From contig WJIQ01000388.1 in NCBI GenBank assembly GCA_014730255.1, positions 1 to 42,182 of the forward strand: 42,182 nucleotides of DNA, in the 5' to 3' direction. Every line of letters begins with the position of its first letter. Position 1 is the stretch's first letter. This document shows, piece after piece, positions 11,437 through 35,332 of the stretch. The DNA is from a bacterium (GTDB taxonomy: Bacteria; Krumholzibacteriota; Krumholzibacteriia; LZORAL124-64-63). The notes under the pieces are model-generated. The model saw only the letters and a list, made by a program, of their open reading frames with translations. It ran no database searches and had not been told where the DNA came from. The translations under genes and the position numbers were made by a program.

Positions 11437-12345
11437 TCAATCGGCGTGCTCGATGGTCACCGCCACGGTGCCGTCCATCTCCGCCCGCAGGTCCGGCCGC
11501 TGGACGGCCTCGGTCTCGATCTGCTCACGCGGCAGGATCATGCTGTCGGCCAGGTGGGCGGCCACCAGCTCGGCGCGCGCGGCGGCCAGCTCCTCGGTCT
11601 CGGCGGTCACGACCACGCGGACCGGCGAGTACGGGTGACGCCGGATCTCGTCCGCCGTCCGCTGCAGCCACTGCTCTCCGCGCGGGCTCAGCTCGCTGCG
11701 GCGCCGCGGGAAGACCTCGCCGCCGGCGAGCTCGAGCACCCGGTGGCCGTCCCGGCGGTAGTCCAGGCCCGGCAGGCGGAAGCTCTCGCCCGCGTAGTTG
11801 TAGGTGTTGGTCCCCTCGTCCGTGGTGGTGAAGACGTAGCTGTAGGGGTAGCCCACGCGCAGCATCTCGCCGTGATCGCTGCGGCCGTCCCACTGGACGG
11901 TCTCCGGCGGGTGACCGGAACCCGTGTAGGTCCGGCAGGGGCTGCCCCGGAAATCGGTGATCACGAGCTTCCATTCGCTCGGCGTGTGCCCCTCGGGCTC
12001 GCTGGTGAAGAAGCTCGCCACCGGCGTGGTCGGGATCTCCGGCAGCCAGTAGTGCGGCGGCTGGTCGCTGCGCAGCGGCTCGAGGTTGTTCAGGTGCGGC
12101 TGAAGGCCCGAGACCGGGCTCACCGAGAGCGCGATCTCCTCCATCGCCGAGTAGAACGAGTCGACACCGGCGGCGTCGAGCTCGAAGTCGAACGACGCCT
12201 TCTCGATGGCCTGGCGTACCTCGTTCTGGGCCTCGACCACCATCTCCGGCAGCACGGCCCCGCTCTCGCCGTCCTCGGTGAACTGCTCCTGGGCGAGCAG
12301 CAGGGACGGCAGCATCACGATCACGATCAGGACTGTCCAGCGCAT
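11437..12345 (-). CDS. Exported protein with FlgD-like Ig module and a divergent OmpA-like C-terminal region
   Basis: Signal peptide MRWTVLIVIVMLPSLLLAQ; WKLVITDFRGSPCRTYTGSGHPPETVQWDG; C-terminal VRVVVTAETEELAAARAELVAAHLAD resembles the OmpA peptidoglycan-binding helix region. Confidence 0.6.
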   Translation of the reverse strand: MRWTVLIVIVMLPSLLLAQEQFTEDGESGAVLPEMVVEAQNEVRQAIEKASFDFELDAAGVDSFYSAMEEIALSVSPVSGLQPHLNNLEPLRSDQPPHYWLPEIPTTPVASFFTSEPEGHTPSEWKLVITDFRGSPCRTYTGSGHPPETVQWDGRSDHGEMLRVGYPYSYVFTTTDEGTNTYNYAGESFRLPGLDYRRDGHRVLELAGGEVFPRRRSELSPRGEQWLQRTADEIRRHPYSPVRVVVTAETEELAAARAELVAAHLADSMILPREQIETEAVQRPDLRAEMDGTVAVTIEHAD

Positions 12346-12357
12346 GGTCGACCTTCT

Positions 12358-13728
12358 CTAGTTCAGACGGAAGACGATGGTGATCACGCCCCACTGCTCC
12401 ACGGCCGACTGCGACGCCGGCAAGGGCGCGAAGCGGAACTGGCGCAGGGCCGCCATGGCGGCCTGGTTGAGGTCGCGATGCACCGAGGTCTGCTCGAAGT
12501 ACATGTTGTCCTTCACGCGGCCGTCCGGCAGCACCGTGAAGTGCACGGCGACCACGCCCTCCCAGCCATTGCGGCGGGCGCGGTCGGAATACTGCGCGGG
12601 CACGCGCGAGAGGATCTTGCGGCCGGCGATCTGGCCGGTGATGGTCATGCCGACGCCCTTGCCGGAGTCGAGATCGGCCTCGGCCACCTGCTTGGCCGGC
12701 GTGCTCTGATCCCCGGACGCCGACTCGACGATGTCGCGCGTGACGGTGGGCTCGGCCAGGCGGCCACGACGGCCCACCAGGCTGCCCGATCCGCCACCGC
12801 TGCCCTCGCCGTAGTCCAGGATGGTCTTGCGGCCCTTCTGGGTGCCACCGCCGGAGCCGCTCTCGGGGCCGCTGACGTCGACGATGGCGCCGGCCGTCCC
12901 GCCGACCCCGGCGCTGCCACGCGCCAGCGCAGGGCGCGTCGACCGCGGCGCGGACGCGGGCGCCTGGCGCTGCGAGAGCCCGCCGCCCTGCAGGGCGACG
13001 TCCGCCCCGGCGACCTTGCCGCGCGTACGGCTGGCCGTGCCCGTGGCGGCGACGACCGGCTCGGAGCCGACCGGCGCACGGCCGCCCCGATTGCGCAGGC
13101 CGCCGGCCTTGGGCTTGAACGTCTCGCGCGTCGTCGGACGCGCCGGACGCGGGGTCTTCAGCTCGGTGTCCTCGACCTCGCCGGCGAGGCTCTTGTTCAG
13201 CTTCTCGGTATCGAAGACGCGCTGGGCCGGCATGGGCGCGGTGCGGGCCTCGAGCTGGGCCGCGGCGGCCAGCTCCTTGCGCGGGGTGACGACCGGCGCG
13301 GTGGTCGGCACGTCGGCCGCCGCGAGCTCGGGACGCTTGGGCTCGGGCCGCCGGGGCTCGAGCTTCGGCGCCGCGGGCAGGGGCTGCCGCGGCTGGAGCT
13401 TCGGTTCGGCGACCGGCGCCTCGATCTCCGGCGCCTCCACCTCGGCGACCGTGGGCGCCGGCTCGGGCTTGACCGCCGACTCGGTGCTGATGCCCGGCCC
13501 ACCGGTGCCGGCGGGCTTGAGCGCCTTGAGCTTGACCTTCTCGGCCACGTCCTCGCCGTAGCGGGCCTCGATGTAGGCGATCTCGGTGAGCTCGTCGCCG
13601 GCGAGCTGTTGCGCGACCTCGCGTCCGATGAGGAATGCCAGCAGCAGCAGCGCGAGCGCGTGCAGGCCCAGGCTCGCGGCGAACGAGCCGCCGGTCTGCC
13701 GCGACCGATCGATGGCCAGTTGCATCAT
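12358..13728 (-). CDS. TonB-family energy transducer
   Basis: N-terminal TM SLGLHALALLLLAFLIGREV; long linker; C-terminal RARRNGWEGVVAVHFTVLPDGRVKDNMYFEQTSVHRDLNQAAMAALRQFRFAPLP. Confidence 0.85.
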   Translation of the reverse strand: MMQLAIDRSRQTGGSFAASLGLHALALLLLAFLIGREVAQQLAGDELTEIAYIEARYGEDVAEKVKLKALKPAGTGGPGISTESAVKPEPAPTVAEVEAPEIEAPVAEPKLQPRQPLPAAPKLEPRRPEPKRPELAAADVPTTAPVVTPRKELAAAAQLEARTAPMPAQRVFDTEKLNKSLAGEVEDTELKTPRPARPTTRETFKPKAGGLRNRGGRAPVGSEPVVAATGTASRTRGKVAGADVALQGGGLSQRQAPASAPRSTRPALARGSAGVGGTAGAIVDVSGPESGSGGGTQKGRKTILDYGEGSGGGSGSLVGRRGRLAEPTVTRDIVESASGDQSTPAKQVAEADLDSGKGVGMTITGQIAGRKILSRVPAQYSDRARRNGWEGVVAVHFTVLPDGRVKDNMYFEQTSVHRDLNQAAMAALRQFRFAPLPASQSAVEQWGVITIVFRLN

Positions 13729-14144
13729 CGCTGGCCCTCCTTCGGTCGCGTGGCCAGGGCGATGCGCGGCGCGCCGGCGTGCTCGACGGCGGCGATGAGC
13801 GTCTCGACCTCGCCGTAGGGCAGGTTCTGGTCGGCCTTGACCACGGCCACGCCGTGCGGCATGCCCTCGAACACCGGGCCGAGGATCTCCGGCACGTCCT
13901 CGAGCAGCATCTCGTTGTCCTCGACGATGATGCGGCGATCGTGCGTGTAGACCACCTCGATGTTGTCGGTGTCGTCGGCCTGGCTCGAGTTGGCCTCGGG
14001 CAGATCGACGTCCACCTCTTCCCCGGTCAGGAACGGCGCGATCATCATCAGCGTCAGCACCACCACCAGCGAGACGTTGATGATGGGCACGACGTTCACG
14101 CGGGTGTCGACGGCGAGCTTGTTCTTCTTCTTACGCGCCACCAT
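13725..14144 (-). CDS. ExbD/TolR-family protein with Asn replacing the conserved TM Asp
   Basis: MVARKKKNKLAVDTRVNVVPIINVSLVVVLTLMMIAPFLTGEEVDVDLPEA; ATG overlaps the upstream TAA (TAATG). Confidence 0.86.
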   Translation of the reverse strand: MVARKKKNKLAVDTRVNVVPIINVSLVVVLTLMMIAPFLTGEEVDVDLPEANSSQADDTDNIEVVYTHDRRIIVEDNEMLLEDVPEILGPVFEGMPHGVAVVKADQNLPYGEVETLIAAVEHAGAPRIALATRPKEGQR

Positions 14145-14572
14145 TAACTCCCGATCTCGTTGAGCAGGGCCAGGCTCTCGGCGCCACTGGCCTTGGCGAT
14201 GTCCAGGGCGGTGACCACCCGACCGAGCTTGACCAGATCGTCGGGCACGATCACCACCGTGCGGTCCTGGCGGACGGAGAGCTTGCTCGTCAGCTCGCTC
14301 GCGATCTCCTCGTCGCTCAGCAGGGTGCCGTTGAGCTTCAGGCCCTCGGGCGTGACCGCGAGCGTGAGCAGCGACTCGTCCAGCTCCTCGGTGGGCTGCA
14401 CCTCGGGCTGCTCGCCACCGGTCTGCGCCTGGTTGACGTCGAAGCCGTTCCACATCAGGGCCGGCATGGTGATCAGGAAGACCACGATCAGCGTCGTCGT
14501 CACGTCCGCCAGGGGCGTGACGTTGGCCTCGTTCAGACCGCCGCCCAGTCCTTCCCGCTTCGCGCGCGCCAT
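14144..14572 (-). CDS. ExbD/TolR-family biopolymer transporter
   Basis: NEANVTPLADVTTTLIVVFLITMPALM; conserved TM Asp present. Confidence 0.88.
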   Translation of the reverse strand: MARAKREGLGGGLNEANVTPLADVTTTLIVVFLITMPALMWNGFDVNQAQTGGEQPEVQPTEELDESLLTLAVTPEGLKLNGTLLSDEEIASELTSKLSVRQDRTVVIVPDDLVKLGRVVTALDIAKASGAESLALLNEIGS

Positions 14573-14573: not shown

Positions 14574-15281
14574 CTACACCCCGACCGGCTCGGGCTGGGG
14601 CTTGGGCGCGGGCGCGGGCGCGGCGGCAGCCGGCGCCTTGGCGGACTGGCTCTGTCGGCGGCGCTGCATCTGCGACGCCAGGGTCAGCCAGTGCTCCCGC
14701 GCGTCCTCGAGCTGCGCCACGCGCGAGCGGATGCGCCGGGTGAAGACGTTGAAGAACACCGTCGCGATCACGGCCACGATGATGCCCGCCGCGGTGGTCA
14801 GCAGGGCCTCGGAGACACCCATGGCGACCACGGCGCCGCCACCGGAACCGGTGCGCGCGATGTCGGCGAAGGCCCGGATGATGCCGACCACGGTGCCGAA
14901 CAGGCCGAGCAGCGGGGCGATGTTGGCCATGGTGCCCAGCACGCCGATGTTCCGCTCCATCTCCACCTGCTCGAGCTCGATGGCCGTATCGAGGCGCTGG
15001 ACCTGCTCGTCGTAGGGACGGTTCAGGTTCGCGCAGCCCTGGGCCATGACCCGCGCGATGGGCTTGTTGTGCTTCTGGCAGTAGTCGAGGGCCGCTCGCG
15101 GATTGCCGTTCTTCAGGTGGCCGGTGACCTCGTTCATGAACCGGCGGGCGTCGACGCTGCTGGACATGAAGTACATCAGGCGCTCGACCGCGAAGCCCAC
15201 GGTCACGATGGAACAGGCCAGCAGCACCACCATCGTGGGCGAGGACTTGAAGACCTGGATGATGGACAGTTCGCCGAACAT
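14574..15281 (-). CDS. MotA/TolQ/ExbB proton channel family protein
   Basis: MFGELSIIQVFKSSPTMVVLLACSIVTVGFAVERL; ANIAPLLGLFGTVVGIIRAF; GVSEALLTTAAGIIVAV. Confidence 0.9.
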   Translation of the reverse strand: MFGELSIIQVFKSSPTMVVLLACSIVTVGFAVERLMYFMSSSVDARRFMNEVTGHLKNGNPRAALDYCQKHNKPIARVMAQGCANLNRPYDEQVQRLDTAIELEQVEMERNIGVLGTMANIAPLLGLFGTVVGIIRAFADIARTGSGGGAVVAMGVSEALLTTAAGIIVAVIATVFFNVFTRRIRSRVAQLEDAREHWLTLASQMQRRRQSQSAKAPAAAAPAPAPKPQPEPVGV

Positions 15282-15367
15282 TGGCTCCGATCCTTTCGCT
15301 CGTTCCGTGCCCGTGGCATTTCGCACCGGGCGTCACTGTTTCCCGTCATGCCAGCAAAGACCGCGCC

Positions 15368-18300
15368 CTACCTGCCCGCGGTCACTCCAGCCTCCGTGAT
15401 CGCCGCGATGCGGCCCTCGGCCATCGCCGTCCACTCGGCCTTGCCGCCGGCGGAGATGATGCGCTCGTAGGCGCTGATCGCGCCGTCCCAGTCGCCGCGT
15501 TCCTCGGCGATGCGTCCGATCTCGGCCAGGGCCGCGACGCGGAACGGGTCGGCGCCCGAACCGGCGGCCGCCTGCTCGTAGCGCGCGATGGCGCCATCGA
15601 CGTCGCCGGCCTTCTCCAGGCACTCGCCCTGCCGGTAGCGGATCTCACGGACCGGCGCGGCCGGGTCCTCGGCCGCCCGCTCGTACGCCGACACCGCCCG
15701 CGTCCAGTCGCCCAGCTCCTCCTGGTAGAGGCTGGCGATCTGCAACCACACGCCCTGGGCGTTCTCGTGGTCGGGGTAGTCGGCGGCGAAGCGCTCGAGG
15801 CTACCGATTGCAGAATGCCATTCCTCGAGCTCCTGGTAGCAGATGGCTGCATTGTAGGCCGCCAGGGGCGCGTACTCGCCCTGCGGGAACAGGTCGGTCA
15901 GCGTCTCGTAGGCGACCGCGGCCGCGGCGAAGTCCTCGGTCTTGAACAGGCACGTCGCCTCGCGCAGGTGCGCGAGCTCGGTCAGGTCGTGCGCCGGATG
16001 CGTGGTCGTGAAGTTGCGGAACCCGGCGAGCGCCTGATCCAGCGACGCGGCGCGGTAGTAGCTCTCGGCCAGGTAGAACAGGGCGCCGGGAGCCGACTCG
16101 CTCTCGGGGTAGTCGAGGGTGACGCGCTCGAAGGCGTCGGCCGCCTCGGCGAAGCGCTCGGCCGCGAACGCCTCCTGCCCCTTGTTCCAGTAGACGTCGG
16201 CCGCCAGCGGGCTGTCCGGGTGCTGCTCGAGGTACTCGGTCATGTCCCGGTCGCTGCGGTAGTAGCAGCTCTGGATGCCGAGCTCGGCGTCCTCGGTGCG
16301 CGGGTCGTCGGGGAAGCGCTCGACGAACTCGCCGAAGCGGGCGATCGCCTGGTCGTCCTGGCCCTGGTTGTAGGCGCAGTTGGCCAGGCCGAAGACCGCG
16401 TCGGCCGCCCGCGGGCCGTCCGGGTCCTCGGCCAGCATCCGGCCGTAGGCCCGGGCCGCGGCGTCGAACCGCGCGAGCCCGAACTGGGTGTCGGCGATGC
16501 GGTACAGGGCCTCCTCGGCCTCGTCCGCCTGCGGGAAGCGCTGCAGCAGGCTGCTCCAGGCCTCGAGCGCCTGGTCGTAGTACTGCAGGCGGTAGTAGCA
16601 GTCGGCCTGGTTGGCGAGTGCGGTCGGCGCGTTGGGATCGTCCGGGTTCTTCTCCAGGAAGTCGCTGAACTCCTCGAGCGCCTCCTCGTACTTGCGCTGG
16701 TTGAAGAAGATCGAGCCCACGGCCAGCGAGTTGGTGCCGCTCTCGCTCTCGTTGTTCGCCAGCACCAGCAGGAAGCGCTCCTGCTCGGCGAGGGCGTCCT
16801 CGTACTGGCCGACCCGGCTGAGCGAGGCCACCAGGCCCTGCAGCGAGGGCGCGGCCACGTTGGCCCGCGGGTAGCCGGTGAGCACGAGGCGGTACATGCC
16901 GGCGGCCTCGCGGTACAGCCCCTGCGAGAAGTAGGCCTCGCCCAGGTAGTAGTAGGTGCGGGCGCGCCAGTTGCTCGCCGTCGGCAGCAGCTTGCTGGCG
17001 ATGTAGTGGTAGTTGGTCAGCACGCGGTCCATCTGGCCCAGGCGCGTGTACGCCAGCGTCGAGAGGAAGAGCGCGCGCTCGGCGACGTCGGTGTTGACGT
17101 GCTTGTCGATCACGTTCTGGAAGGCGAGGATCGCCTTCTTGTATTCCTCGAGCTGGAAATGCGCGAAGCCCTTGAGAACCCGCACGCGCGGGGCCAGGGG
17201 GTCGCCGGGATACCGCTGGAGGAAATCGTCGGCCAGCACGATGGCCTGGCCGTAGTTGCCCTCCTGCGAGTAGGCGTAGACCACCTTGTGCATGGCGGCC
17301 GAGGCGACGGTCGACTCGGGGAAGCGCTTGATCACGTCGGTCCAGGCGAAGATGGCCTCGCTCGGACGCTCGAGCTTGAGGCAGCAGTCGCCGACCAGGT
17401 ACTGGGCGTAGGCCGAGACGTCCGAGTCGGGGAAACCCTGGACGATCTGCTGGAGCTGGCGCATCGACTCGTCCCAGCGCTCCTCGCGGAAGGTCACGCA
17501 GGCGATCTTGTAGCGCGCGTTGGGCACGAACGAGCTCTTCGGGTAGGTCTCGACGAAATCGCGGTAGCTGCGCACGGCGATCTTGTTCTGCCCCGAGTGG
17601 TAGAACGCCTCGGCGATGGAGAAGGCCACGTCGTCGGCCAGCGGGCTCTCCGGGAAGCGGCGCAGGACCTGCTTGTAGCGCTGGATGGCCAGGATGTACT
17701 GGCCGGATTCCTCGAGCGTGCGGCCGAGGAAGTACAGCCCGCGATCGGTCGGGACCTTCTCGAAGTGCTCGCGCGCCTCCTCGAAGCGCTCGTCGTGGAA
17801 GGCGAACAGGCCGAGGGCGAAGATCACCTCCTGCAGGTCGGCGTAGCCGGGCCGCCGCTCGAGCAGCTCGCGGTACGCCTCCTCCAGGCGCAGCCAGTTG
17901 CCCTGGACGATGTACGCCTGGCCGAGCTCGTACAGGCCCTCGGCCAGCAGGAACGTGTCGTCGTGCTTCTCGACCAGCGCGGTGTAACGCTCGATGGCCT
18001 CGTCGTAGCGCTCGAGGTTGAACAGGCACTCGCCCTCGCGCAGCAGGACCGAGGCCTTCAGGTAGTCGTCGAGCCCCTTGCGGCCCGAGACCTCGGCGTA
18101 CTCGCGCAGCGCGCCCTTCCAGTCGCCCATGGCGTGGTAGCACTCGCCGAGCATGAACTGGGCGGCGGCGGCGCGCTCGCTACCGCCGTAGGTCTTGACG
18201 AACAGGCGGTACTGCTGCATGGCCGCCGACTTGTCGGTCTCGTCGGCGGTGTAGGCCGCGCCGGCGGCGCGCCAGAGCGCGTCCTCGGGCGGGACCAGGG

Positions 18301-18373
18301 ACGGCTCGTCGGCCAGGGCGGCGGTCGCGAACACGAGCAGCAGAACGACGAGGCACAGGTTGCGCACGGTCAT
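15368..18373 (-). CDS. Large TPR-repeat exported protein, 1001 aa
   Basis: Signal peptide MTVRNLCLVVLLLVFATAALA; many TPR units (e.g. AYYDQALEAWSSLLQRFPQADEAEEALYRIADTQF); ATGA overlap with the upstream gene. Confidence 0.88.
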   Translation of the reverse strand: MTVRNLCLVVLLLVFATAALADEPSLVPPEDALWRAAGAAYTADETDKSAAMQQYRLFVKTYGGSERAAAAQFMLGECYHAMGDWKGALREYAEVSGRKGLDDYLKASVLLREGECLFNLERYDEAIERYTALVEKHDDTFLLAEGLYELGQAYIVQGNWLRLEEAYRELLERRPGYADLQEVIFALGLFAFHDERFEEAREHFEKVPTDRGLYFLGRTLEESGQYILAIQRYKQVLRRFPESPLADDVAFSIAEAFYHSGQNKIAVRSYRDFVETYPKSSFVPNARYKIACVTFREERWDESMRQLQQIVQGFPDSDVSAYAQYLVGDCCLKLERPSEAIFAWTDVIKRFPESTVASAAMHKVVYAYSQEGNYGQAIVLADDFLQRYPGDPLAPRVRVLKGFAHFQLEEYKKAILAFQNVIDKHVNTDVAERALFLSTLAYTRLGQMDRVLTNYHYIASKLLPTASNWRARTYYYLGEAYFSQGLYREAAGMYRLVLTGYPRANVAAPSLQGLVASLSRVGQYEDALAEQERFLLVLANNESESGTNSLAVGSIFFNQRKYEEALEEFSDFLEKNPDDPNAPTALANQADCYYRLQYYDQALEAWSSLLQRFPQADEAEEALYRIADTQFGLARFDAAARAYGRMLAEDPDGPRAADAVFGLANCAYNQGQDDQAIARFGEFVERFPDDPRTEDAELGIQSCYYRSDRDMTEYLEQHPDSPLAADVYWNKGQEAFAAERFAEAADAFERVTLDYPESESAPGALFYLAESYYRAASLDQALAGFRNFTTTHPAHDLTELAHLREATCLFKTEDFAAAAVAYETLTDLFPQGEYAPLAAYNAAICYQELEEWHSAIGSLERFAADYPDHENAQGVWLQIASLYQEELGDWTRAVSAYERAAEDPAAPVREIRYRQGECLEKAGDVDGAIARYEQAAAGSGADPFRVAALAEIGRIAEERGDWDGAISAYERIISAGGKAEWTAMAEGRIAAITEAGVTAGR

Positions 18374-19635
18374 TGGTCACTCCCACTAGTGGCGGTACCG
18401 GTGCCGCCGATCTCGAGGCGGATGGGGTCGCGGGTGCGCTCGCGGAATCCGAGCACCTCCACGTCGCTCTCGTAGTCCCAGATCTGGCCCAGCTCGTCGA
18501 CGATCAGCACGCTCGCGGTGTAGGTGCCGTCGCCCACGAGGCGACCATCGGTGTCCTCGCCGTCCCAGGTGACGTCCTCGGGCGGGTTGCCGGCGCCCTC
18601 GAGGCGGCGGACCTCCTGGCCCCGGCCGTCGCGGATGACCACCTGCCAGCGCTCGACCTCGCCGCGGACGGCGGTGCGGATGCCGAAGGTGACCGAGCGG
18701 TCGGCGCCCGAGGGGCTGAACAGGGCGCGGTCGCGCTCCAGCTTGACGCCGTAGGGCACGCCGAAGCGCAGCGTGGCCGACACGATGTTCTGGCTGCCGA
18801 GGTCGGTGTTGACGTAGGCGTAGTCGAACTGCCAGTTGTCCAGGCGCAGGCCCGCGCCCGCCGACCACTGCTCCTTCTCGCCGTCGTAGCCGCCACGCAT
18901 GGCGATCATGCGCGCGGGCCAGACCTCGAGGCCGGCCCGGTAGCTGGTGTCCATCCACTCGGTGCGAACGGCGTCGGCGGTCATGTGCAGGCGGTTGTGG
19001 AAGAAGCTCACCGCGAGGCCGGCGCGGAGGCTGCGGTTGAGCGTCTCCTCGTCCTCGACCAGGGTGATCTTCGGCTGCATCGCGTTCTGGACCGCCACGC
19101 CGAGGGCCAGCGCCCGGTGGGGGCGGTAGTAGGCACCGAGGTCCAGGCCGGTGCCCGAGCCCGCCGCGCCGCCGATGTCCTGGCGCACGGTCTTGAAGGT
19201 CATGCCCAGCGACAGGCGGCCGAAGGCCTTGGCCCAGCCGAGGGAGAACACGCCCTCGGTCTCGGAGAAGGTCTCGTCGAGGTCCTCGTAGACCGTGGTG
19301 CGCTCGAAATCGCCGCTGGTGGTGTAGGTGCCGCTCAGCGCGAAGGTGCCCCAGCTCTCGGTCGGCAGTCCGAGGGCGACGAAGCCGTACTGGGTGTCGA
19401 GGCCGAGGTTGGCGCCCATCGCGGCCAGCTCCATGGTGCGCAGCTGCGCGTAGCCAGCGGGGTTCCAGTAGCTGGTCGCCGCGTCGTCGGCCAGACCGGT
19501 CACCGCGTTGCCGAGCGAGAGGCTGCGGGCGCTGGCGCCGTAACGGAGGTAGCCGCCGGGCACGCCGCCGTCCTCCATGGCGATGGCCGGCAAGGCCACG
19601 GCGAGCACTGCGAGGGTGAGGATGAGCCTGTTCAT
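18370..19635 (-). CDS. PorV/PorQ-like outer-membrane protein with C-terminal FlgD-like Ig module
   Basis: MNRLILTLAVLAVALPAIA; GASARSLSLGNAVTGLADDAATSYWNPAGYAQL (PorV/UPF0164-like); beta-barrel strands; WQVVIRDGRGQEVRRLEGAGNPPEDVTWDG. Alternative ATG at 19659 overlaps the upstream TGA. Confidence 0.78.
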   Translation of the reverse strand: MNRLILTLAVLAVALPAIAMEDGGVPGGYLRYGASARSLSLGNAVTGLADDAATSYWNPAGYAQLRTMELAAMGANLGLDTQYGFVALGLPTESWGTFALSGTYTTSGDFERTTVYEDLDETFSETEGVFSLGWAKAFGRLSLGMTFKTVRQDIGGAAGSGTGLDLGAYYRPHRALALGVAVQNAMQPKITLVEDEETLNRSLRAGLAVSFFHNRLHMTADAVRTEWMDTSYRAGLEVWPARMIAMRGGYDGEKEQWSAGAGLRLDNWQFDYAYVNTDLGSQNIVSATLRFGVPYGVKLERDRALFSPSGADRSVTFGIRTAVRGEVERWQVVIRDGRGQEVRRLEGAGNPPEDVTWDGEDTDGRLVGDGTYTASVLIVDELGQIWDYESDVEVLGFRERTRDPIRLEIGGTGTATSGSDQ

Positions 19636-19658: not shown

Positions 19659-22600
19659 TCACTTCACCACCGCGATCTTGCGTTGCAGGTCGATGCCGGC
19701 GCCGTGGATCCGGCAGACGTAGCCGCCGTTGCCCACCACCCGGCCCTTGCCGTTGCGGCCGTCCCAGACGTACTGCTCGACCGCACCCGCGGTGACGCTC
19801 TTCTGAGCCTTGTGCACGATGTCGCCGTAGAGCGTGTAGAAGACGATGTTGACCGTGCCCGACTCCCGGGCGCGGAAGATGACCGTGGTCTCCTCGCGGC
19901 CGGCCGCGAAGGGGTTGGGCCGGTTGGTGACGTCGCGATCGGTACCGAGGTCGGCGGCGATGTAGAGCACGATGCTCTTGACGGCCTCGCTCACCCCGCC
20001 GGACTCCTCGGCGTAGAAGCGGATCACGTGACGACCCGGCGCGGTGGCCTCGTCGCCGAGATCGGCCAGCGTGAACGGACCGTCGTACAGCTCGCGCGGG
20101 CGCGGATCGTCGGTCACGTCGAGGTCGTACCAGACGCCCTGCACCGGATCGGGGCCCTCGACCGTGGTCGAGAGGCTGATCTCCGTCGACGGCAGCACGT
20201 AGTAGCCGTCGCTGTACTCGACGGCGTCGGGGAAGAGCTCCAGCGACGTCGTCGGCGGGCCCTGGACCTCGACCGCCACCGGCGGCGACAGCGCGTCGCC
20301 GGCGGCCGCCTGCAGGATCAGGTCACGCGAGCCGTGATCGGTGACGTACAGCTCGCACGTCGCCTCGCCGCCGTTGTTGGCCACCAGCTCGGTCTCCGGA
20401 CCGCGCAGCGACCCGATGCCGGCGTCGCCGTCGAGCAGCCAGACCGAGATCGGGGTGCCCGCCACCGCGTTGCCCGAGGCATCGTGCGCACGCACGCGCA
20501 GGTACACCTGGTCGGCCGGCCGCAGCGGCCGGTCGAGCCGCTGGCCGGGCAGGTCCTCGACGACCAGCTCGCAGACCGTCACGGGCGCCGGGACGATGGT
20601 GATGGGCTCGCTGAAGAACTGCTCGCCCTGGTCGTCGCTGACCTCGATGAAGATGGTCTCGGCGCGGTCGTAGCTCTGGAAGGGGAACTCACGCACGCCT
20701 TCGACCGTGGTGCCGACGGTGTCGGCGAGGACGCCGGCGGGCGTGAGCGAGAAATCGGGACGCGGCGCGTTGCCGCTGAAGGCCGTCAGCACGAACGAGC
20801 GGTCGTCGCTGGTGACGATCTCGCCGGTGACGATGTCCACGCGGCGGACCGCCATCTCGAACGGCTCGCCGGCGACCGCCGAGTCGGGCACGTCGACGGC
20901 GTAACGCACGCCCTCGGGCACGACGGTCAGGACGTCGGAGTAGTTGGTGCGTCCGCGGCTGTCACGCACGCGGATCACGATGTCCTCGCTGGCGGGGTAG
21001 TGCTGGCCGCTGACCACGGCCTCGCCCGCGACGAGGGTGCCCTCGCTGATGCCCAGGGTCGCCGAGGCCGCGCTGCGATCGGGCCGGAGCGCCGTGAGGT
21101 TGAAGTCGCCACCGGCATTGATCCTCGCCCCCGTCTCGGGATTGATCAGACGCACGGTGAGCGTGAAGGTGGCCGGCGGTCCGGCGGTGACGACGGCCGG
21201 ATCGGGCAGCACCACGCGGTACTCGGCCTCGTTGACCGGGATGTCGACACGGCCGCTGGAGACGTCCGGGTGGCCGGGGTCGTTGGCGAAGACCGAGATC
21301 AGGCCCGGGTTGCCGAGCACGATCTCGATGTCGCGGCTGCCGCCGATGAACGGGGCGTCGTCGTCGTCGTCGTCGACCAGGTCGAGCGCCCCGCCGCTGC
21401 TGGAGAGCTGGATCTGCCCGTCGTCGATGTCGTTGGCCAGGTTCCAGTACTGGTCGACCGCGCGCACGGTCACCGTGAACGGGACCTCGGCCTGCTGGGT
21501 GAGCACCTCGCCGGTCTTGCCGGTGCCGGTCAGGCTGCCGGGCGCCGGCAGCTCGCCGGGGGCGAGGACCTGGATGCGCTTGAACCCGTCGGCCTTCATG
21601 CGGCAGGTGTTGCTGATGCCGACGATGCCGGTCGTGTCGCTGACCTCGATGAAGATGTCTTCCGAGCGCGTGTAGGCCTGCGAGATCTCACGGATGCCCG
21701 CCTGCAGGATGCCCTGGCCCACCTCGAGGTGGCCCTCGCCGGGCAGGCCGGTCTGGGCGCTCATGACCTCGATGGTGAACAGGCGGTCCTGCGTGGTGAC
21801 GCGCTGGCCGGTGTTGCTGTCGATCAGCTCGACCGTCAGCGGGAAGGTCTCCGGCGGGCCGACCGTGGCCGAGTCCGGCAGGGTCACCGCGTAGTAGAGG
21901 CCGCCCGAATCCATCTCGATGACCGAGCTGAAGGCCTCGCGGCCGTAGTCGTCGTCGACGCGGATGATGATGTCCTCGACCGTGTCGTAGCTCTGGGTAT
22001 TGAGCACGCACACGCCGCCGATGAGCTGGGCCTCCTCGATGCCGAGGTTGCCGTTGGCCGCGCCCTGGTTGGGCAGGAGCGGCGTCATGCGGAACCGGTT
22101 GTGGGCCGTCGGCACCACGTTGCCGGTGACCGGGTCGATGAGCTTGACGGTGATCTGGAAGCCGGGCACCGGGCCGGTCGAGGCGGTCGCCGGCACGGTG
22201 ATCTCGTACTCGTAGGGCGGATCGACCGGCACGTACGTGGTCTGCGACGGGATCGAGATGTCCTGCTCGTCGTAGACCGATACCGAGACCGTGCCCTCGT
22301 CGGTGAGGAAGCCGTTGAACGTGCGTCGGCCGTTGACGAACGGCACGAAGTTCTGGTCGGGGTTGCCGTCCTCGGAGAACGAGCCGTCGCTGGCCACCAG
22401 CCGCAGCGTGCCCACCGAGGTGGTGTCGGCCAGGTTCCAGTACTGGTCGACCGCACGCACGGTCATGGGGAACGGCTCGCCCGAGCGCTGCACGTCCGGG
22501 GCGCCGCTCTTGCCGCTGCCCTCGTACTCGGGGCGGCCGGCCTCGACGACCTCGCCGGGCGCGACGATCTGCAGACGCTTGTACCCGTCGGCGGTCATCG

Positions 22601-25600
22601 AGAACACCGGGCTCGAGCCCTCGAGACCGGTCGTGTCCGTGACGGTGACGTAGACGTTGCCGGCGCGGGTGTAGCTCTGCTGGAAGGTCACCGTACCGTG
22701 GTCCAGCCGCTGGTTCGTCACGCCGACCACGCCGAGCCCGACGCCCGTGGCCGCCTCGTGGATCGAGACGTCGAAGCGGCGGTCGCTGTCGATCATGGTC
22801 TGCGTGTCGACGTCGCGCAGGGTGACGGTCATCGGGAAGGTGGCCGGCGGTCCGACGCGGATCGTCTCGGACGCGTCGACGTTGACCACGTACTCCAGGC
22901 CGTTGGGCTGCATCTCGATGGTCGAGCTGTAGCTCTGGCGACCGGAGATGTCGGTGATGCGGACGACGATGTCCTCGACCGTGTCGTAGGCCTGGTCGGC
23001 GATGGTCACCGTCCCGGCCGAGAGCTGCGCGCTGGTGATCTGCAGCGTGCTGCTGGCCGGCTCGAGGTTGGCCTTGAGCGCCTCGACGGTCACCCAGTTG
23101 TTGGCCGTCGGCAGCGGGTCGCCGTTCTCGTCGACCAGGCTGATGGTCATGCTGAAGGTGCTCGGCGGCCCGACCAGGGCCGTGGCGGGCACGTCGATCT
23201 GGTACTGCGCGCCCTGGAGCACCTCGACCGTGGCCGACTGGCTGGTGATGTCGGTGTGGTCGAGCGCCGAGGCCGTGAGCGTCACGTAACCGGGCGTGGT
23301 CAGGTACAGCGGCATCACCAGCTCGCCGCCCACCAGCGGCTGATCGTTGTTCAGCGGGTTGGTCGGGGTGAAGCTGTCGTCGTCGCTGGCGAGGTGGACG
23401 CGTTCGTCGACCGTCGCGACCAGGTTCCAGAACTGGTCGGTGGCGCGGATGCGCGCGTCGAACTGCAGGCTCGCCGTCTGCGGCGTCGGGCTGCCGACCT
23501 TGCCGTCGGATTCGGGGCCGCCGGGCTCGGCCGTCTCGCCGGGCAAGAGCAGCATCAACCGGTCGAACTCGCCGGCGGTGACGCTGACGGTCGAGGTGTC
23601 CGTGATGGTCGGCTCGATGAGGTCGCTGACCGTCAGATCGTGCGTCTCGGCCGCCTTGAAATAGAGATCGAAGACCCGCGAGCCGTCGATCTCCAGGGCC
23701 TGGTCGTTGGGCGAGATCATCTGGAAGTAGCCGCTGCTCGCGAAGTGGACCTGGGGCCGCGCCGGCACCTGGTTGAAGTTGGCATCGGTGGCGATGACGG
23801 TGGCCTGGACCGGGTCGCCGGCCTGCACCGGGACCGGCGTGCCGGCCTTGCCCGGCGCGATGCCCGGCGTGTGCGTCTCGCCCGGCAAGAGCACGATGAG
23901 ATCGGCGTAGTCCTGCTCGTCGGCGAACACGTCGAAGGTGTTCGAGCTGTCGGTCAGGGCGTAGGTCTCCTCGCGCACGAACAGGCGCACGTCCTCGCCG
24001 GTGCGGGTGATCTGGATCGGCCCGCGCCAGGCGCCCTGGAAGGTGCCGCTGCCCATGCCGTCGCCGAGGTCGGCCACGGTCGGGGTCAGGATGCCCGTGC
24101 CGTGGTTGACGTAGAGGGTGACCTCCTCGGCGTAGTCGTTGATGTGGTTGCCGAAGATGTCACGGGCGATCAGGGTCACGTTGGGCAGCGAGCTGCCCGC
24201 GCGATGGTCGGGGATCGGATCGAGCACGTCGTTGGGCGTGGGATTCGAGCGGTTGTTGATGCCGATGTCGAAGTGGTCGATCACGCCCGCGCGCACCGGG
24301 ATGGTGGCGTAGGCCGAGCGGCCGGTCAGCCGGTCGGTGACCTCGACGGTCTGCCGGTTCGGGTCGGCCAGGGTCACCAGGGCGACCTCGAAGTCGCCGA
24401 GATGGTCGTTGAGCTGCTGCGGGTTCGCGGGAAGGACCGCCGCGGCGTCGCTGCTGGTGAAGTCGATGTCCATGGGCAGCGCCGGCGAGGCGTCGCTCAC
24501 GGGGTTCCAGTACTCGTCGGTGGCGAAGACGCGCACGTCGAAGGGCACGCCGGCGTCCTGGGTGCCGGGGTCGCCCTGCTTGCCGTCGTCCTCGATGCTG
24601 TCGAAGATGCCCGGCGCGAGGGTCTCGCCCGGAGCCTGGACGACCAGGCGCTGCCACGGCGCCGGCGAGACGGAGATCTCGTTGGAATCGTTGGGATCGA
24701 GACCACTGCTCTCCGCGCGCAGGACCTGCGAGTCCGAGGCCGTGCGCAGCACCACGCGGATGTCGGTGGGGTTGGAGATCTGCACGATGTTGGACGGATA
24801 GTCGGGCAGCTCGAAGTATCCGGTCGGGCAGCTCAGGCTCACGTTGCGGGTGCCGGGCGCCAGGTTGTTGTAGCGGTCGACCGGCCGCAGGGTGACCGGC
24901 TGGATCTCGTCGCCGGCGGTGACCGAGTTGGGCGGGTTGAGGTTGCCGCTGAAGTCGGGGTCGTTGAGGCCGGGCGTCCACTGCTGGCCCGGGAACGTCA
25001 TCAGGATCTTCTCGCACGGGCCGGGGTTGACCTGGAAGGCGGGCGACTCGCCGACCACGCCGGAGTCGACGATGATGTAGGCGGAGAACCCGCGCTTGGT
25101 CACCTGCACGAGCGCGTCGAGCTGGCCGTTCACGAACGTGCTGTTGCTGGTGATGATGTAGTCGGCCGATTCGTCGGCCGCGCCGATCCGCGCGCGCAGG
25201 CTCACCTGGCCGTTGAGGTCCTCGAACACGTTGCCGTTGGCGTCACGGGCGATGATCCGGATGTTGAACGGGATCGTCGTCACCTGCGGATCGTTCGGGT
25301 CCCAGATGCCAGTGTCGAACTCGAAGTGGTCGAGCCCCTCGGGGTTGATGAACACGTCGCTGCGGCTGGTCGCGTTGATCGCGCCGCTGGCCGTGGCGGT
25401 CACGCGCGTGGTCCCCGACTCGATGAGCGTCAGGGTGTAGCCGGTCTCGGGGTTGTCGCCCATGCCGGCGGTCCCGGGCAGGACCACGCCGGGATCGGCA
25501 TCGTCGCTGGTCCAGGCGATCGTCGGGTAGGGACCGGATTCGATGGGGTTCCAGCGCTGGTCGGTGGCGTAGACGCGGATGCCGCCGAAGTTCGCGCCGG

Positions 25601-26414
25601 AGGTCTGGCTGTTGGGCGTGCCGCTCTTGCCGGGGCTGACGCCCGGGGTGAGCGTCTCGCCGGGCAGGAGCAGGACGATGTCCGCCGGGGCGCCGGGCAA
25701 CAACGGCGCGACCGTCGCCTGGCCCGAGGCCGGCTGCGCGTAGCCGTCGTAGACCACCGAGCCGTCGGCGTAGATGATGTTCTCGCGGGTCACCGGATCG
25801 GTGCCCCAGAAGGTGACGTCGCGCGTGACGGTACCGTCGGCGAACGACGTGCCGGCGACCGTGATCGACGGACCGGTCGAGAAGTGCCCGACCTCGGCGG
25901 TGAGCGTCACGTCGTCGCGGAAGTTGAGGACCGTCTCGCCGAACGTGTCGACCGCGGTCAGGGTCACCGGAACCGCCTGGTCGACGTACTTCGTCCCGGC
26001 CGGGACCTCGACGACGAACCGGTCGACCGGCGGGTAGCAATCGATCTCCACCTCGGCCGTGGGCACCGATCCGTCGTCGGCGTCGCTCACGCGCAGCCGC
26101 ACCGGCCGCCCGGGCGCCAGGAACTCCACGCCGTCGAACTGCCGCTCGCCGTTCTGCAGGTACTGGCTCGACGGCAGGTTGGCCGCGACGTCCGGCGAGG
26201 CGAGCTCGGCATTGATGAAGTCGGCGGTGACGTCCGTGGTCCCGTCGGCGTTGACCGCACGCACGTAGACGCTGAACGGCTCGTTCACCGTGACCGCGGG
26301 CCGGCCGGCGACCAGATGCGGGTTCACCACGGTGATCTCGAGGTGGTCGAACGCAGCGGCCGTCGAGACCAGAAGGCTGGTCAGGGCGAAAATGATGATT
26401 GCTTTCGTCGACAC
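19659..26414 (-). CDS. Giant exported repeat protein (~2250 aa), Ig-like modules, FlgD/T9SS-type C-terminal domain
   Basis: GTG at 26414 with AGAGGT upstream gives STKAIIIFALTSLLVSTAAAFDH signal peptide; C-terminus NRPNPFAAGREETTVIF...YVWDGRNGKGRVVGNGGYVCRI...KIAVVK. Confidence 0.85.
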   Translation of the reverse strand: MSTKAIIIFALTSLLVSTAAAFDHLEITVVNPHLVAGRPAVTVNEPFSVYVRAVNADGTTDVTADFINAELASPDVAANLPSSQYLQNGERQFDGVEFLAPGRPVRLRVSDADDGSVPTAEVEIDCYPPVDRFVVEVPAGTKYVDQAVPVTLTAVDTFGETVLNFRDDVTLTAEVGHFSTGPSITVAGTSFADGTVTRDVTFWGTDPVTRENIIYADGSVVYDGYAQPASGQATVAPLLPGAPADIVLLLPGETLTPGVSPGKSGTPNSQTSGANFGGIRVYATDQRWNPIESGPYPTIAWTSDDADPGVVLPGTAGMGDNPETGYTLTLIESGTTRVTATASGAINATSRSDVFINPEGLDHFEFDTGIWDPNDPQVTTIPFNIRIIARDANGNVFEDLNGQVSLRARIGAADESADYIITSNSTFVNGQLDALVQVTKRGFSAYIIVDSGVVGESPAFQVNPGPCEKILMTFPGQQWTPGLNDPDFSGNLNPPNSVTAGDEIQPVTLRPVDRYNNLAPGTRNVSLSCPTGYFELPDYPSNIVQISNPTDIRVVLRTASDSQVLRAESSGLDPNDSNEISVSPAPWQRLVVQAPGETLAPGIFDSIEDDGKQGDPGTQDAGVPFDVRVFATDEYWNPVSDASPALPMDIDFTSSDAAAVLPANPQQLNDHLGDFEVALVTLADPNRQTVEVTDRLTGRSAYATIPVRAGVIDHFDIGINNRSNPTPNDVLDPIPDHRAGSSLPNVTLIARDIFGNHINDYAEEVTLYVNHGTGILTPTVADLGDGMGSGTFQGAWRGPIQITRTGEDVRLFVREETYALTDSSNTFDVFADEQDYADLIVLLPGETHTPGIAPGKAGTPVPVQAGDPVQATVIATDANFNQVPARPQVHFASSGYFQMISPNDQALEIDGSRVFDLYFKAAETHDLTVSDLIEPTITDTSTVSVTAGEFDRLMLLLPGETAEPGGPESDGKVGSPTPQTASLQFDARIRATDQFWNLVATVDERVHLASDDDSFTPTNPLNNDQPLVGGELVMPLYLTTPGYVTLTASALDHTDITSQSATVEVLQGAQYQIDVPATALVGPPSTFSMTISLVDENGDPLPTANNWVTVEALKANLEPASSTLQITSAQLSAGTVTIADQAYDTVEDIVVRITDISGRQSYSSTIEMQPNGLEYVVNVDASETIRVGPPATFPMTVTLRDVDTQTMIDSDRRFDVSIHEAATGVGLGVVGVTNQRLDHGTVTFQQSYTRAGNVYVTVTDTTGLEGSSPVFSMTADGYKRLQIVAPGEVVEAGRPEYEGSGKSGAPDVQRSGEPFPMTVRAVDQYWNLADTTSVGTLRLVASDGSFSEDGNPDQNFVPFVNGRRTFNGFLTDEGTVSVSVYDEQDISIPSQTTYVPVDPPYEYEITVPATASTGPVPGFQITVKLIDPVTGNVVPTAHNRFRMTPLLPNQGAANGNLGIEEAQLIGGVCVLNTQSYDTVEDIIIRVDDDYGREAFSSVIEMDSGGLYYAVTLPDSATVGPPETFPLTVELIDSNTGQRVTTQDRLFTIEVMSAQTGLPGEGHLEVGQGILQAGIREISQAYTRSEDIFIEVSDTTGIVGISNTCRMKADGFKRIQVLAPGELPAPGSLTGTGKTGEVLTQQAEVPFTVTVRAVDQYWNLANDIDDGQIQLSSSGGALDLVDDDDDDAPFIGGSRDIEIVLGNPGLISVFANDPGHPDVSSGRVDIPVNEAEYRVVLPDPAVVTAGPPATFTLTVRLINPETGARINAGGDFNLTALRPDRSAASATLGISEGTLVAGEAVVSGQHYPASEDIVIRVRDSRGRTNYSDVLTVVPEGVRYAVDVPDSAVAGEPFEMAVRRVDIVTGEIVTSDDRSFVLTAFSGNAPRPDFSLTPAGVLADTVGTTVEGVREFPFQSYDRAETIFIEVSDDQGEQFFSEPITIVPAPVTVCELVVEDLPGQRLDRPLRPADQVYLRVRAHDASGNAVAGTPISVWLLDGDAGIGSLRGPETELVANNGGEATCELYVTDHGSRDLILQAAAGDALSPPVAVEVQGPPTTSLELFPDAVEYSDGYYVLPSTEISLSTTVEGPDPVQGVWYDLDVTDDPRPRELYDGPFTLADLGDEATAPGRHVIRFYAEESGGVSEAVKSIVLYIAADLGTDRDVTNRPNPFAAGREETTVIFRARESGTVNIVFYTLYGDIVHKAQKSVTAGAVEQYVWDGRNGKGRVVGNGGYVCRIHGAGIDLQRKIAVVK
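20577..21584 (-). repeat. Super-repeat copy 3 (~336 aa)
   Basis: FKRIQVLAPGELPAPG...RAVDQYWNLA; YRVVLPDPAVVTAGPPATFTLTVRL...HYPASEDIVIRVRDSRGR; YAVDVPDSAVAGEPFEMAVRRV...SYDRAETIFIEVSDDQG. Confidence 0.8.
21585..22583 (-). repeat. Super-repeat copy 2 (~333 aa)
   Basis: YKRLQIVAPGEVVEAG...RAVDQYWNLA; YEITVPATASTGPVPGFQITVKL...SYDTVEDIIIRVDDDYGR; YAVTLPDSATVGPPETFPLTVEL...AYTRSEDIFIEVSDTTG. Confidence 0.85.
22584..23567 (-). repeat. Super-repeat copy 1 (PGE module + two beta modules, ~328 aa)
   Basis: Starts FDRLMLLLPGETAEPGG...RATDQFWNLV; then YQIDVPATALVGPPSTFSMTISL...AYDTVEDIVVRITDISGR; then YVVNVDASETIRVGPPATFPMTVTL...SYTRAGNVYVTVTDTTG. Confidence 0.85.
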
Positions 26415-30043: not shown

Positions 30044-31285
30044 TCAGGCCTGCTTCAGCTTGCGGGCCCGCTTCAGCAGCCGCACGGCGAGATCCTTCTG
30101 GTCGTCGAACTTGGCCGCCTGGACCAGATTCTGGATGGCCAGGCCCCGGTTGCCCATCTCGATGTGGCAGTAGCCGATCATCAGCAGCGGGCGGCCGTTC
30201 TCCGGGTCGAGCTCGGCCACCCGGGCGAAGGCCCGCGCCGACTCGGCGTACTCCTGGCGCATGTAGTGGATGTCGCCGAGCAGCGACCAGAGCCGCACGG
30301 TGGGATCGGTCTTAAGGCCCTCCTCGAGCGCCGCCAGCGCCTCGTCGAGGTCGTGCGCGGCGACGTACGCGGAGACCAGACGCTCGTAATCCTCGGCGCT
30401 GGTGTCGTCGCCGTCCATGGCCCGGCGGTAGCGGTCGCTGGCCAGGGCGGGCACCTCGACCACGTTGTAGAGGTCGCCGAGCGTGCGCTGCTCGCGCGGC
30501 GTCAGCTCGCGCAGGTAGCCCACGATGGTCAGGGAGACCGCCGCCTCGCGGTAGCGCTCGAACCCGACCTCGAACTGGTAGCGCAGGAACCAGGCCTCGT
30601 GGCTGTCGGGCTGGATCTGCAGGTAGTGCTCGAGCCGGTCCTCGGCCAGCCCGGGGCGCTCGAGGGTGATCGCGCACTGCGCGAGCTGCGCGTACCAGTC
30701 GTGGCGCGGCACGCCCCACTTGCCGCTGCAGAGCTCGTCGAGCAACGGCGCGGCGGTCTCGTGATCCTCGGCCAGCATGTAGCCCGCCGCCGCGAAGTAG
30801 AGGGTCTCCGGCTGCGGGTCGATCGCGGTACGGAACGCCTTGAGGAACGCGGCGCCGGAGCTGGCGTAGTTGCCCAGGTTGTACTCCACGTGCCCGAGGC
30901 CGAACCAGCCCGAGTCCAGACGGGGCTCCATCTCGACCGACCGCGTGTACTGCAGCTTGGCGTCCTCGTAGCGCCCCAGGGCGTCATGGCTGGCGCCCAG
31001 GTGGTAGCGCACCAGGAAGTGGTCGTGGTCCGGATGATCGCGCAGGTGCTCCTCCAGGGTGGCGATGGCATCGGCGTGCTCGCCCCGCTTGGCCTTGGTG
31101 ATGGCCCGGAAGAGGACCTTGCGCGTCAGGCGCGGCACCTGCGACATGTCGCTGGGGTCGATGAACTGCTGCGAGACGCCGCCGGCGTCGACACTGCGGG
31201 CATCGGCGTCGTTGTCGGCGGCGATCGCCCCGGTGGCGACCATCAGCACGCCGGTGGCAAGGAGCATCCGGAAGAATCGGTTCAT
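30044..31285 (-). CDS. TPR-repeat exported protein
   Basis: MNRFFRMLLATGVLMVATGAIAADN signal peptide; TPR units; last gene of the TonB2-like cluster. Confidence 0.82.
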   Translation of the reverse strand: MNRFFRMLLATGVLMVATGAIAADNDADARSVDAGGVSQQFIDPSDMSQVPRLTRKVLFRAITKAKRGEHADAIATLEEHLRDHPDHDHFLVRYHLGASHDALGRYEDAKLQYTRSVEMEPRLDSGWFGLGHVEYNLGNYASSGAAFLKAFRTAIDPQPETLYFAAAGYMLAEDHETAAPLLDELCSGKWGVPRHDWYAQLAQCAITLERPGLAEDRLEHYLQIQPDSHEAWFLRYQFEVGFERYREAAVSLTIVGYLRELTPREQRTLGDLYNVVEVPALASDRYRRAMDGDDTSAEDYERLVSAYVAAHDLDEALAALEEGLKTDPTVRLWSLLGDIHYMRQEYAESARAFARVAELDPENGRPLLMIGYCHIEMGNRGLAIQNLVQAAKFDDQKDLAVRLLKRARKLKQA

Positions 31286-31320
31286 GGGTCTCGTCTCCTC
31301 GTCGGTTCCGTCCGTTCGCG

Positions 31321-31938
31321 TCAGTTCAGCCGGAAGTGCAGGGTCGTCGTGACCCAGGCGGTGACGGGCTCGCCCCCGACCTCGCCGGGCTTGAAGCGCC
31401 AGTTGGGGACCGCCCGGCGCACGGCCGTGTCGAACACGCCCTTGGGCTTGGCCTTGAGCACGTTGACCTGGCGGACCGAGCCGTCCTCGGACACCAGCAC
31501 CTTCACGGCGACGTAGCCCTCGATCCCGCGCTCGCGGGCCTGATACGGGTACTCGGGGTTGACGCGCGAGACCACCTCGGGCGCCCGGTCGAGATCCACC
31601 GAGTCGAAGATGAAGCTGGTCTTGGCGGCCTCGCGCTCGACGCCGCCGACGTTGATCGACACGCCGATCGCCGGTCCGCCCATGTCGCCGAGTCCGGGCT
31701 GGACGAGGTCGGGCGCGAAGTCGGGCTTCTCCTGCGGCGGCGGCGGCTCGGGGTCCTTGATCTCCTCCTGCTCGGGCGGCTCGGGCGCCTTCAGGGAGAC
31801 CAGGCTGACGCCGACCGGATCGGAGATGTCCTGGGGCGGCTCGCGCTCCTGCGACAGGATCGTGGTCGCACCCAGCAGCAGCAGGTTGACCACCGCCGCG
31901 AGCACGGCCAGCACCAGGTAGCGTCCGAGAGCGCGCAC
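31321..31938 (-). CDS. TonB-family protein (TonB2-like)
   Basis: YLVLAVLAAVVNLLLLGATTIL TM; Pro-rich PEPPEQEEIKDPEPPPPQEKP; YPYQARERGIEGYVAVKVLVSEDGSVRQVNVLKAKPKGVFDTAVRRAVPNWRFKPG. Confidence 0.9.
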   Translation of the reverse strand: MRALGRYLVLAVLAAVVNLLLLGATTILSQEREPPQDISDPVGVSLVSLKAPEPPEQEEIKDPEPPPPQEKPDFAPDLVQPGLGDMGGPAIGVSINVGGVEREAAKTSFIFDSVDLDRAPEVVSRVNPEYPYQARERGIEGYVAVKVLVSEDGSVRQVNVLKAKPKGVFDTAVRRAVPNWRFKPGEVGGEPVTAWVTTTLHFRLN

Positions 31939-31941
31939 GCG

Positions 31942-32361
31942 CTACTCCTCTCCCTCGCGCTTGGCCGCGAGCGAGACGCTGCTCGCGCCGGCGAGGCGGC
32001 ACTGATCCATGACCTTGACCACGTCCCCGGTCTCGCTGCCCTTGTCGGCGACGACGACCACGCCGGCCTCGGGATCCTCGGCGAGCGAGCGCTCGACCAG
32101 GCCCCGGACCGAGCGCACGTCGACCTCCTTGCCCTCCATGTAGACCTCGCCCTCGCTCGTGACGCCGATCATGATCGAGGCCTTCTCCTTGACCTCGGCC
32201 GTCGACGCGGTCGAGCGCGAGACCTCGATGCCCGATTCCTTGACGAAGCTCGTGGTCACCACGAAGAAGATCAGCAGCAGGAAGACCATGTCGATCAGGG
32301 GCGACATGTTGACGTCGACGTTGTCATTGCCGCCGCGAATGGTGCCTCGGACGTTGATCAT
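31942..32361 (-). CDS. ExbD/TolR-family protein
   Basis: NVDVNMSPLIDMVFLLLIFFVVTTSF. Confidence 0.92.
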   Translation of the reverse strand: MINVRGTIRGGNDNVDVNMSPLIDMVFLLLIFFVVTTSFVKESGIEVSRSTASTAEVKEKASIMIGVTSEGEVYMEGKEVDVRSVRGLVERSLAEDPEAGVVVVADKGSETGDVVKVMDQCRLAGASSVSLAAKREGEE

Positions 32362-32374
32362 CGGATCTCTCCCG

Positions 32375-33001
32375 TCAGGACCGGGCGCTCAACGCCGGAT
32401 CCTGGTGCTTGAGGGTGCGATCGAGAAGATGCGAGAACTCGTCGAGCCGGAGCTCCATGCGGCGCGCGCGTCGCAGCAGCGCGCCGGAGACGAGCATGCC
32501 CGGGATCGCGACCAGCAGGCCGGCCTGCGTGGTCACCAGCGCGACCGAGATGCCACCGGCCATGGCCTTGGCGTTGCCGGTGCCGAACATCGCGATCACC
32601 TCGAAGGTCTCCATCATGCCGAGGACCGTGCCCAGCAGCCCGAGCAGCGGGGCGATGGCGGCCAGGATGGCGATCATCGCCAGGTGCTGCCGGATCTTCG
32701 GACGCAGCGCCAGGGTGTGCTGGTGCAGGATGCTGCGGTCGAGCTCGGCGTCCCGGCTCCGCTCGTTCAGGAAACGGTTGAGCAGCATCCGCCGCAACCC
32801 CGAACCCGAGGTGTCGACGTCCTGGTCCTCGAGCGCCTTGACCGCGCTCATCGCATCGATGTCGCCCGTGGTGAAGGCGGCGTACTGGGCGAATCGGTCC
32901 AGGACGAGCACCCACATCCACAGCGAGGCGGCGCCGAGCGGGATCATCACCCAGCCGCCCTGCTTGAGGTACTCCCAGGATTCCCAGACCAGATCGGACA
33001 T
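32375..33001 (-). CDS. MotA/TolQ/ExbB proton channel family protein
   Basis: MSDLVWESWEYLKQGGWVMIPLGAASLWMWVLVLDRF; AAIAPLLGLLGTVLGMMETF; TGATG overlap with upstream gene. Confidence 0.92.
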   Translation of the reverse strand: MSDLVWESWEYLKQGGWVMIPLGAASLWMWVLVLDRFAQYAAFTTGDIDAMSAVKALEDQDVDTSGSGLRRMLLNRFLNERSRDAELDRSILHQHTLALRPKIRQHLAMIAILAAIAPLLGLLGTVLGMMETFEVIAMFGTGNAKAMAGGISVALVTTQAGLLVAIPGMLVSGALLRRARRMELRLDEFSHLLDRTLKHQDPALSARS

Positions 33002-35159: not shown

Positions 35160-35280
35160 GAACGGTTCCCTTCGCGTGCAGGTGATATCGCGCGACCGAT
35201 AAGCTACTGGAGGTCCGTAAGGAGCCGGTTACCGGCATGTTAAATTTGGTTTAAGGGACTGTTGGCGCCGCCCGTGGAAA

Positions 35281-35308: not shown

Positions 35309-35332
35309 CGTAACCATCGCGGCGCGAAGGTT

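Follow-up and report, generated by a model that had tools for sequence, protein, structure and literature searches.

The window analysed here is a 42,182-nucleotide (nt) stretch of contig WJIQ01000388.1 (assembly GCA_014730255.1, positions 1 to 42,182), whose minus strand encodes a giant protein of about 20 modules that includes three tandem copies of an A-B-C cassette. The number of cassettes is the same in every complete long homologue, the gene heads an eight-gene operon that also encodes a PorV-type barrel and an ExbB-ExbD-TonB set, and the second ExbD of operons with this long cargo carries Asn in place of the proton-binding Asp, with a single exception. The favoured reading, to which a probability of about 45% is assigned, is that the giant is a surface rod exported by the type IX secretion system (T9SS), seated on its own PorV-type barrel and coupled via tetratricopeptide repeat (TPR) and TonB proteins to an asymmetric ExbB-ExbD1-ExbD2 motor.

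The giant gene (19659..26414, minus strand; stop at 19659) comes from a metagenome-assembled genome (MAG) of Krumholzibacteriota that is ~94% complete, and encodes ~2,250 amino acids (aa). Homologues were searched for in two phyla, covering the Krumholzibacteriota (80 genomes) and a four-genome group around the locus L044; the genomes are species representatives, and MAGs wherever their titles were shown. Within a minus-strand open reading frame spanning 26549-19659, the GTG at 26414 is the likely start, as the N-termini of the orthologues agree at ...AFDHLEI. A Sec signal peptide, read from the sequence and from these aligned N-termini, opens the protein (MSTKAIIIFALTSLLVSTAAA, then FDHLEITV), and is followed by modules in the order N1-N2-a1-x1-a2-a3-x2-a4-[A-B-C]x3-D-E-CTD, where CTD is the C-terminal domain (19662..19955), a sorting-like domain of the FlgD_ig/T9SS type recognised from genome-wide matches and T9SS models. 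All of these features lie on the minus strand. Cassette 1 (23570-22587, 984 nt) consists of A1 (23570-23211), B1 (23210-22899) and C1 (22898-22587); cassette 2 (22586-21588, 999 nt), the most conserved of the three copies, of A2 (22586-22215), B2 (22214-21897) and C2 (21896-21588); and cassette 3 (21587-20577, 1011 nt) of A3 (21587-21222), B3 (21221-20910) and C3 (20909-20577). An earlier note, made from the DNA letters, had described three tandem super-repeats of ~1 kb here, and its boundaries lie no more than 3 nt from these. The A-type (PGE) module also occurs singly upstream of the cassettes at least three times, as a1 (25700-25338), a3 (24659-24288) and a4 (23915-23571), which match A1-A3 at Z 6-19 in module-wise alignment against shuffles. 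Together with (a2) and interleaved x modules they form an upstream PGE array (23571..25700) delimited by shuffle Z-scores and the tree.

To compare the modules, every pair among the ~20 was scored by local alignment with a shuffle-corrected Z. A-A pairs reached Z 22-27 and B-B pairs Z 27-34, while among the C modules C1-C2 gave Z 28, C2-C3 Z 23 and C1-C3 only Z 7. A modules thus match one another, as do B modules and adjacent C modules; the claim of the earlier note that modules match the same position in other copies best fails for C1-C3, since C1 scores higher against B1 (Z 17) and the raw pairwise score does not pair C1 with C3 best. B against C mostly gave Z 10-25, from which the two are taken to be homologous. 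A against B or C stayed around background with the single exception of A2-C3 (Z 8.9), and a profile comparison hinted at remote kinship between A and B/C (E 1e-4, probability 57%).

Trees were built with FastTree and with fixed-model IQ-TREE. With 12 orthologues added, Shimodaira-Hasegawa (SH)-like support was 1.0 for the A clade, 0.94-0.97 for the B clade and, in the B+C tree, 0.97 for the C clade; in a tree that included an outgroup, B and C obtained ultrafast bootstrap (UFBoot) values of 85 and 73. B and C are sister modules in the phylogeny, and each cassette copy has a clade of its own across the Krumholzibacteriota (UFBoot 94, 100 and 99 for copies 1, 2 and 3). The trees thus recover A, B and C clades and group modules by position; grouping by cassette, which the earlier note had named as the outcome that would tell against its proposal, is ruled out. 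It follows that A-B-C was duplicated as a block and then diverged, as that note had supposed. Tandem Repeats Finder reported no array in the DNA, because the copies are too diverged at that level.

The triplication is old, since the cassettes differ more within one protein (31-42% identical) than the same cassette does between relatives, where identity is ~60-80% in most cases and 46-50% for the remotest of the sampled long forms. Orthologues in three families share the order of ~20 modules, with near-constant module lengths at 44-80% identity. Searched with a B/C profile, every long gene contained whole on one contig yields six matches, with one more where the genome also has a short paralogue; counts below six belong to genes truncated at a contig end or to fragmented assemblies. 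A recent or variable repeat expansion is ruled out by this invariant cassette number. In the short paralogue (~1000 aa) the modules run A-x-A-x-A-A-(one B/C)-D-CTD, and its single B/C module lies outside the B+C clade (support 93), so the B/C duplication is placed before the cassette triplication. In terms of module order, the cassettes sit where the shorter relative has A and then a single B/C module, which supports, as the simplest history, the duplication of one B/C module into B and C, followed by triplication of the A-B-C block and fixation of its number. The two cargo forms are unevenly distributed: the four-contig genome G001, from the window's genus, shows only a short-form cargo operon and the window genome only a long form, while some genomes have both.

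The long-form homologue at L044, from a MAG labelled Zixiibacteriota, has three cassettes that are 49-50% identical to one another, closer than in Krumholzibacteriota. They cluster together weakly (support 58), a shared triplication is not rejected by the approximately unbiased (AU) test (p = 0.20), and the best match of each A module is still the one at the corresponding position. This likeness may reflect slow divergence, or else independent homogenisation or triplication.

Structure prediction of one cassette, proposed in the earlier note as a check, is in keeping with a three-domain unit: AlphaFold2 returned an all-beta model of cassette 2 (16 homologues; predicted local distance difference test score, pLDDT, 88.2) that is read as three beta-sandwich domains. 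Its best PDB matches are complement/A2M macroglobulin (MG) domains, filamin, PorU, an S-layer protein and intimin, with low overall TM-scores of 0.2-0.3, as expected when domain orientations differ. These matches support an immunoglobulin (Ig)-like fold for the model and not membership in the MG, filamin, PorU, S-layer or intimin families. In the profile search no module of the giant passed a curated family cut-off (Big_1 12.8 against 34.9, Invasin_D3 12.2 against 33, MG2 19.9 against 32.8); the only module to pass Big_1 is a D module, in one short paralogue (35.5 against 34.9). Matches to arginase and ubiquitin from a PDB sequence search were dismissed as chance-like. The giant resembles Ig-like repeat proteins of the MG, Big_1, invasin and filamin types in being a string of beta-sandwich modules, but differs from them in its higher-order A-B-C cassette at fixed copy number.

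Downstream of the giant, the operon continues on the minus strand with genes for a PorV-type barrel, a periplasmic TPR protein, ExbB, ExbD1, ExbD2, TonB and an OmpA-like protein, tightly spaced or overlapping. Long and short cargo head the identical eight-gene order, the full set was present in 13 of the 13 loci followed to the end, with the OmpA-like gene adjoining TonB in each, and the cargo and the other operon proteins are conserved to a similar degree. The barrel (18370..19635) passes the PorV/PorQ family cut-off (NF033709, 129 bits against 90), scores below the PorV and PorQ equivalog cut-offs, and ends in a FlgD_ig domain (36.6 bits); the top two PDB matches of its model (pLDDT 74, moderate), 8gl6_F and 6h3i_F, are chains of T9SS translocon complexes. 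The TPR protein (15368..18373; 1,001 aa) has many TPRs and a signal peptide, with no lipobox seen, and is read as secreted or periplasmic. ExbB (14574..15326), a proton-channel subunit of the ExbB/TolQ type, matches MotA_ExbB at 105 bits. ExbD1 (14144..14572; ExbD, 51 bits) has the transmembrane motif PLADV with the proton Asp, and ExbD2 (13725..14150; ExbD, 63 bits) the motif PIINV, with Asn in its place. TonB (12358..13728) combines an N-terminal helix with a conserved His, a long linker and TonB_C (54 bits), and the last gene (11437..12345) encodes a weakly OmpA-like protein (E 0.0046, below cut-off); it has a signal peptide, and its middle part is FlgD_ig-like. The FlgD_ig at the C-terminus of the barrel (~18500-18700) is of the same type as the CTD of the cargo, and a segment like it is present in the OmpA-like protein; judged by sequence likeness, a docking module shared by the three is possible.

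The residue difference follows the cargo. The proton-binding Asp of ExbD is Asp25 in Escherichia coli, where the D25N mutant is inactive (PMC11658791). ExbD1 keeps this Asp in every operon read, while ExbD2 (13725-14150 and loci L112-L161) has Asn in 28 of the 29 genomes with the long form and Asp in all 26 with the short form. A comparison of contig names places about 19 of the long-form operons with Asn, and about 17 of the short-form ones with Asp, on the contig of their own cargo; the remainder were assigned by sequence. In the ExbD tree the ExbD1/ExbD2 duplication is older than the long/short split (0.987), so the operon seems to have been duplicated as a unit, with the long form losing one Asp later. 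The long-form motor is accordingly predicted from these residues to be asymmetric, with Asp on ExbD1 only and ExbD2 as an Asn-bearing "dead" partner.

For export, the window genome (G000) encodes the translocon protein SprA (504 bits, cut-off 200) and the sortase PorU (425.6 bits, cut-off 420), on contigs C32 and C352; both occur here in Krumholzibacteriota, though reviews call the T9SS Bacteroidetes-specific. The genome has 43 further matches to the CTD type of the giant, T9SS models match it over their C-terminal portion, and the CTD of a short paralogue passes the FlgD_ig cut-off. Profile searches of the giant gave no match to CHU_C, the type B CTD, and no recognised ligand-binding domain.

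Taken at the sequence level, the Sec-type signal peptide, the sorting-type CTD and the presence of SprA and PorU form the basis for regarding the giant as a putative T9SS-exported rod. Under the favoured mechanism it would be a cell-surface rod of ~20 Ig-like domains, exported by the T9SS and passed at the outer membrane to the PorV-type barrel whose gene comes next. The barrel would dock its cognate cargo, and the periplasmic TPR protein, TonB and the OmpA-like protein would couple it mechanically to the proton-driven ExbB-ExbD1-ExbD2 motor. Force from this motor on the rod would then serve adhesion, gliding-like movement or extension, and the invariant number of cassettes would set the length of the rod. 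Several observations weigh against this mechanism. The CTD of the giant itself scores below curated cut-offs (FlgD_ig 16.9 against 27), models of GldL and GldM found no match in the 94% complete window genome, in a search whose control was uninformative, and the barrel's score for the PorP/SprF family TIGR03519 is only 11.6 (cut-off 90.55), making it PorV/PorQ-like and not PorP/SprF-like. Moreover, it is gene order that suggests contact of the barrel with the TPR protein and TonB, and one genome, G025 (locus L134), carries a long-form ExbD2 with Asp on the contig of its cargo.

The rod might alternatively be a static surface spacer or adhesin that is never moved, with ExbB, ExbD and TonB serving envelope maintenance as a Tol-Pal-like link from outer membrane to peptidoglycan. 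The YbgF/CpoB type of the TPR protein, the OmpA-like last gene and the resemblance of ExbB, ExbD and TonB to Tol-Pal parts speak for such a role, as does the strong conservation of the whole set, which suggests a housekeeping function. This explanation is nevertheless considered unlikely, as it leaves unexplained why, in both paralogues of the operon, cargo and dedicated barrel precede the motor genes and why Asp and Asn are split by cargo type; in addition, the operon proteins tested gave no match to a TolB/PD40 beta-propeller. Membership in Tol-Pal was rejected on the absence of that match and on the OmpA domain falling below its cut-off.

A further step down in probability is TonB-energised export or uptake, in which TonB would pull the PorV/FadL-type barrel to free the cargo or to import a ligand gathered by the Ig array. 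TonB_C is over its cut-off, the barrel is FadL-like, a family that includes importers, and another energiser might be needed where the usual T9SS motor GldL/GldM went undetected in the search mentioned above; yet the profile search found no TonB-dependent-receptor plug domain in the barrel, the cargo is without recognised ligand-binding domains, and uptake needs no large rod. Large surface proteins often undergo tandem duplication of domains, and the giant could be a rapidly changing adhesin that gained its three cassettes by accident through such duplication, with no particular connection to the neighbouring genes. The position clades fit this account as well, but copy number and module lengths that are invariant over families contradict it, as do the fixed gene order and a cargo about as conserved as its partners, and it is regarded as very improbable.

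The coupling of rod, barrel and motor gains plausibility from two precedents, SprB-SprF and Agl-Glt. In Flavobacterium johnsoniae, the adhesin SprB requires and binds the neighbouring barrel SprF, and the pair resembles the present one in joining a giant repetitive T9SS cargo to a 14-strand FadL-family barrel encoded by the next gene (PMC9143113, PMC12618676). Here, however, the barrel belongs to the PorV/PorQ type and the CTD is FlgD_ig-like instead of type B/CHU_C, and membership in the SprB/SprF pair type was rejected on both counts; the operon also includes a complete ExbB-ExbD-ExbD-TonB motor and a TPR protein, whereas the drive in Bacteroidota is GldL/GldM. In Myxococcus xanthus, the AglR-AglQ-AglS motor (one ExbB-like and two ExbD-like subunits) drives gliding with the TonB-like GltG, TPR and OmpA-fold outer-membrane proteins (PMC3169522), and AglQ D28N abolishes gliding (PMC3858216). 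By composition the window's cluster is alike, with one ExbB/TolQ-like and two ExbD/TolR-like proteins, a TonB-like transducer and a TPR protein, but here a single operon combines them with a T9SS cargo and a PorV-type barrel, and the second ExbD of the long form is without the proton Asp. A 2025 survey reported TPR-tolQ-tolR-tolR clusters that include a force transducer and whose function is unknown (PMC12204202); in contrast to the von Willebrand factor A (vWA) protein of those clusters, the transducer here is a TonB_C protein, and T9SS cargo and barrel head the operon.

No description of this eight-gene operon was found in the open-licence literature. It is proposed tentatively, as a possibility that falls short of the probable, that the operon encodes an undescribed trans-envelope force machine, comprising a fixed-length T9SS Ig rod, a dedicated PorV-type barrel and an ExbB motor with two separately encoded ExbD subunits that would be one-armed in the long-rod version. 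Elsewhere in the window, a separate energy-transduction cluster (30044-40265, minus strand) encodes a TPR protein, ExbD, ExbB with DUF3450, a DUF3450 protein, a protein with a T9SS-type CTD and a TonB-dependent receptor.

The three-cassette array is a case of conserved, not variable, repeat number in a giant surface protein, and the natural Asp-to-Asn split between paralogous ExbD genes makes it testable whether ExbB-ExbD motors need one or two proton-carrying arms. If the proposed mechanism is true, bacteria outside the Bacteroidota would couple T9SS surface rods to a TonB-type motor within a single operon, which would bear on the origin of gliding adhesins and their drives.

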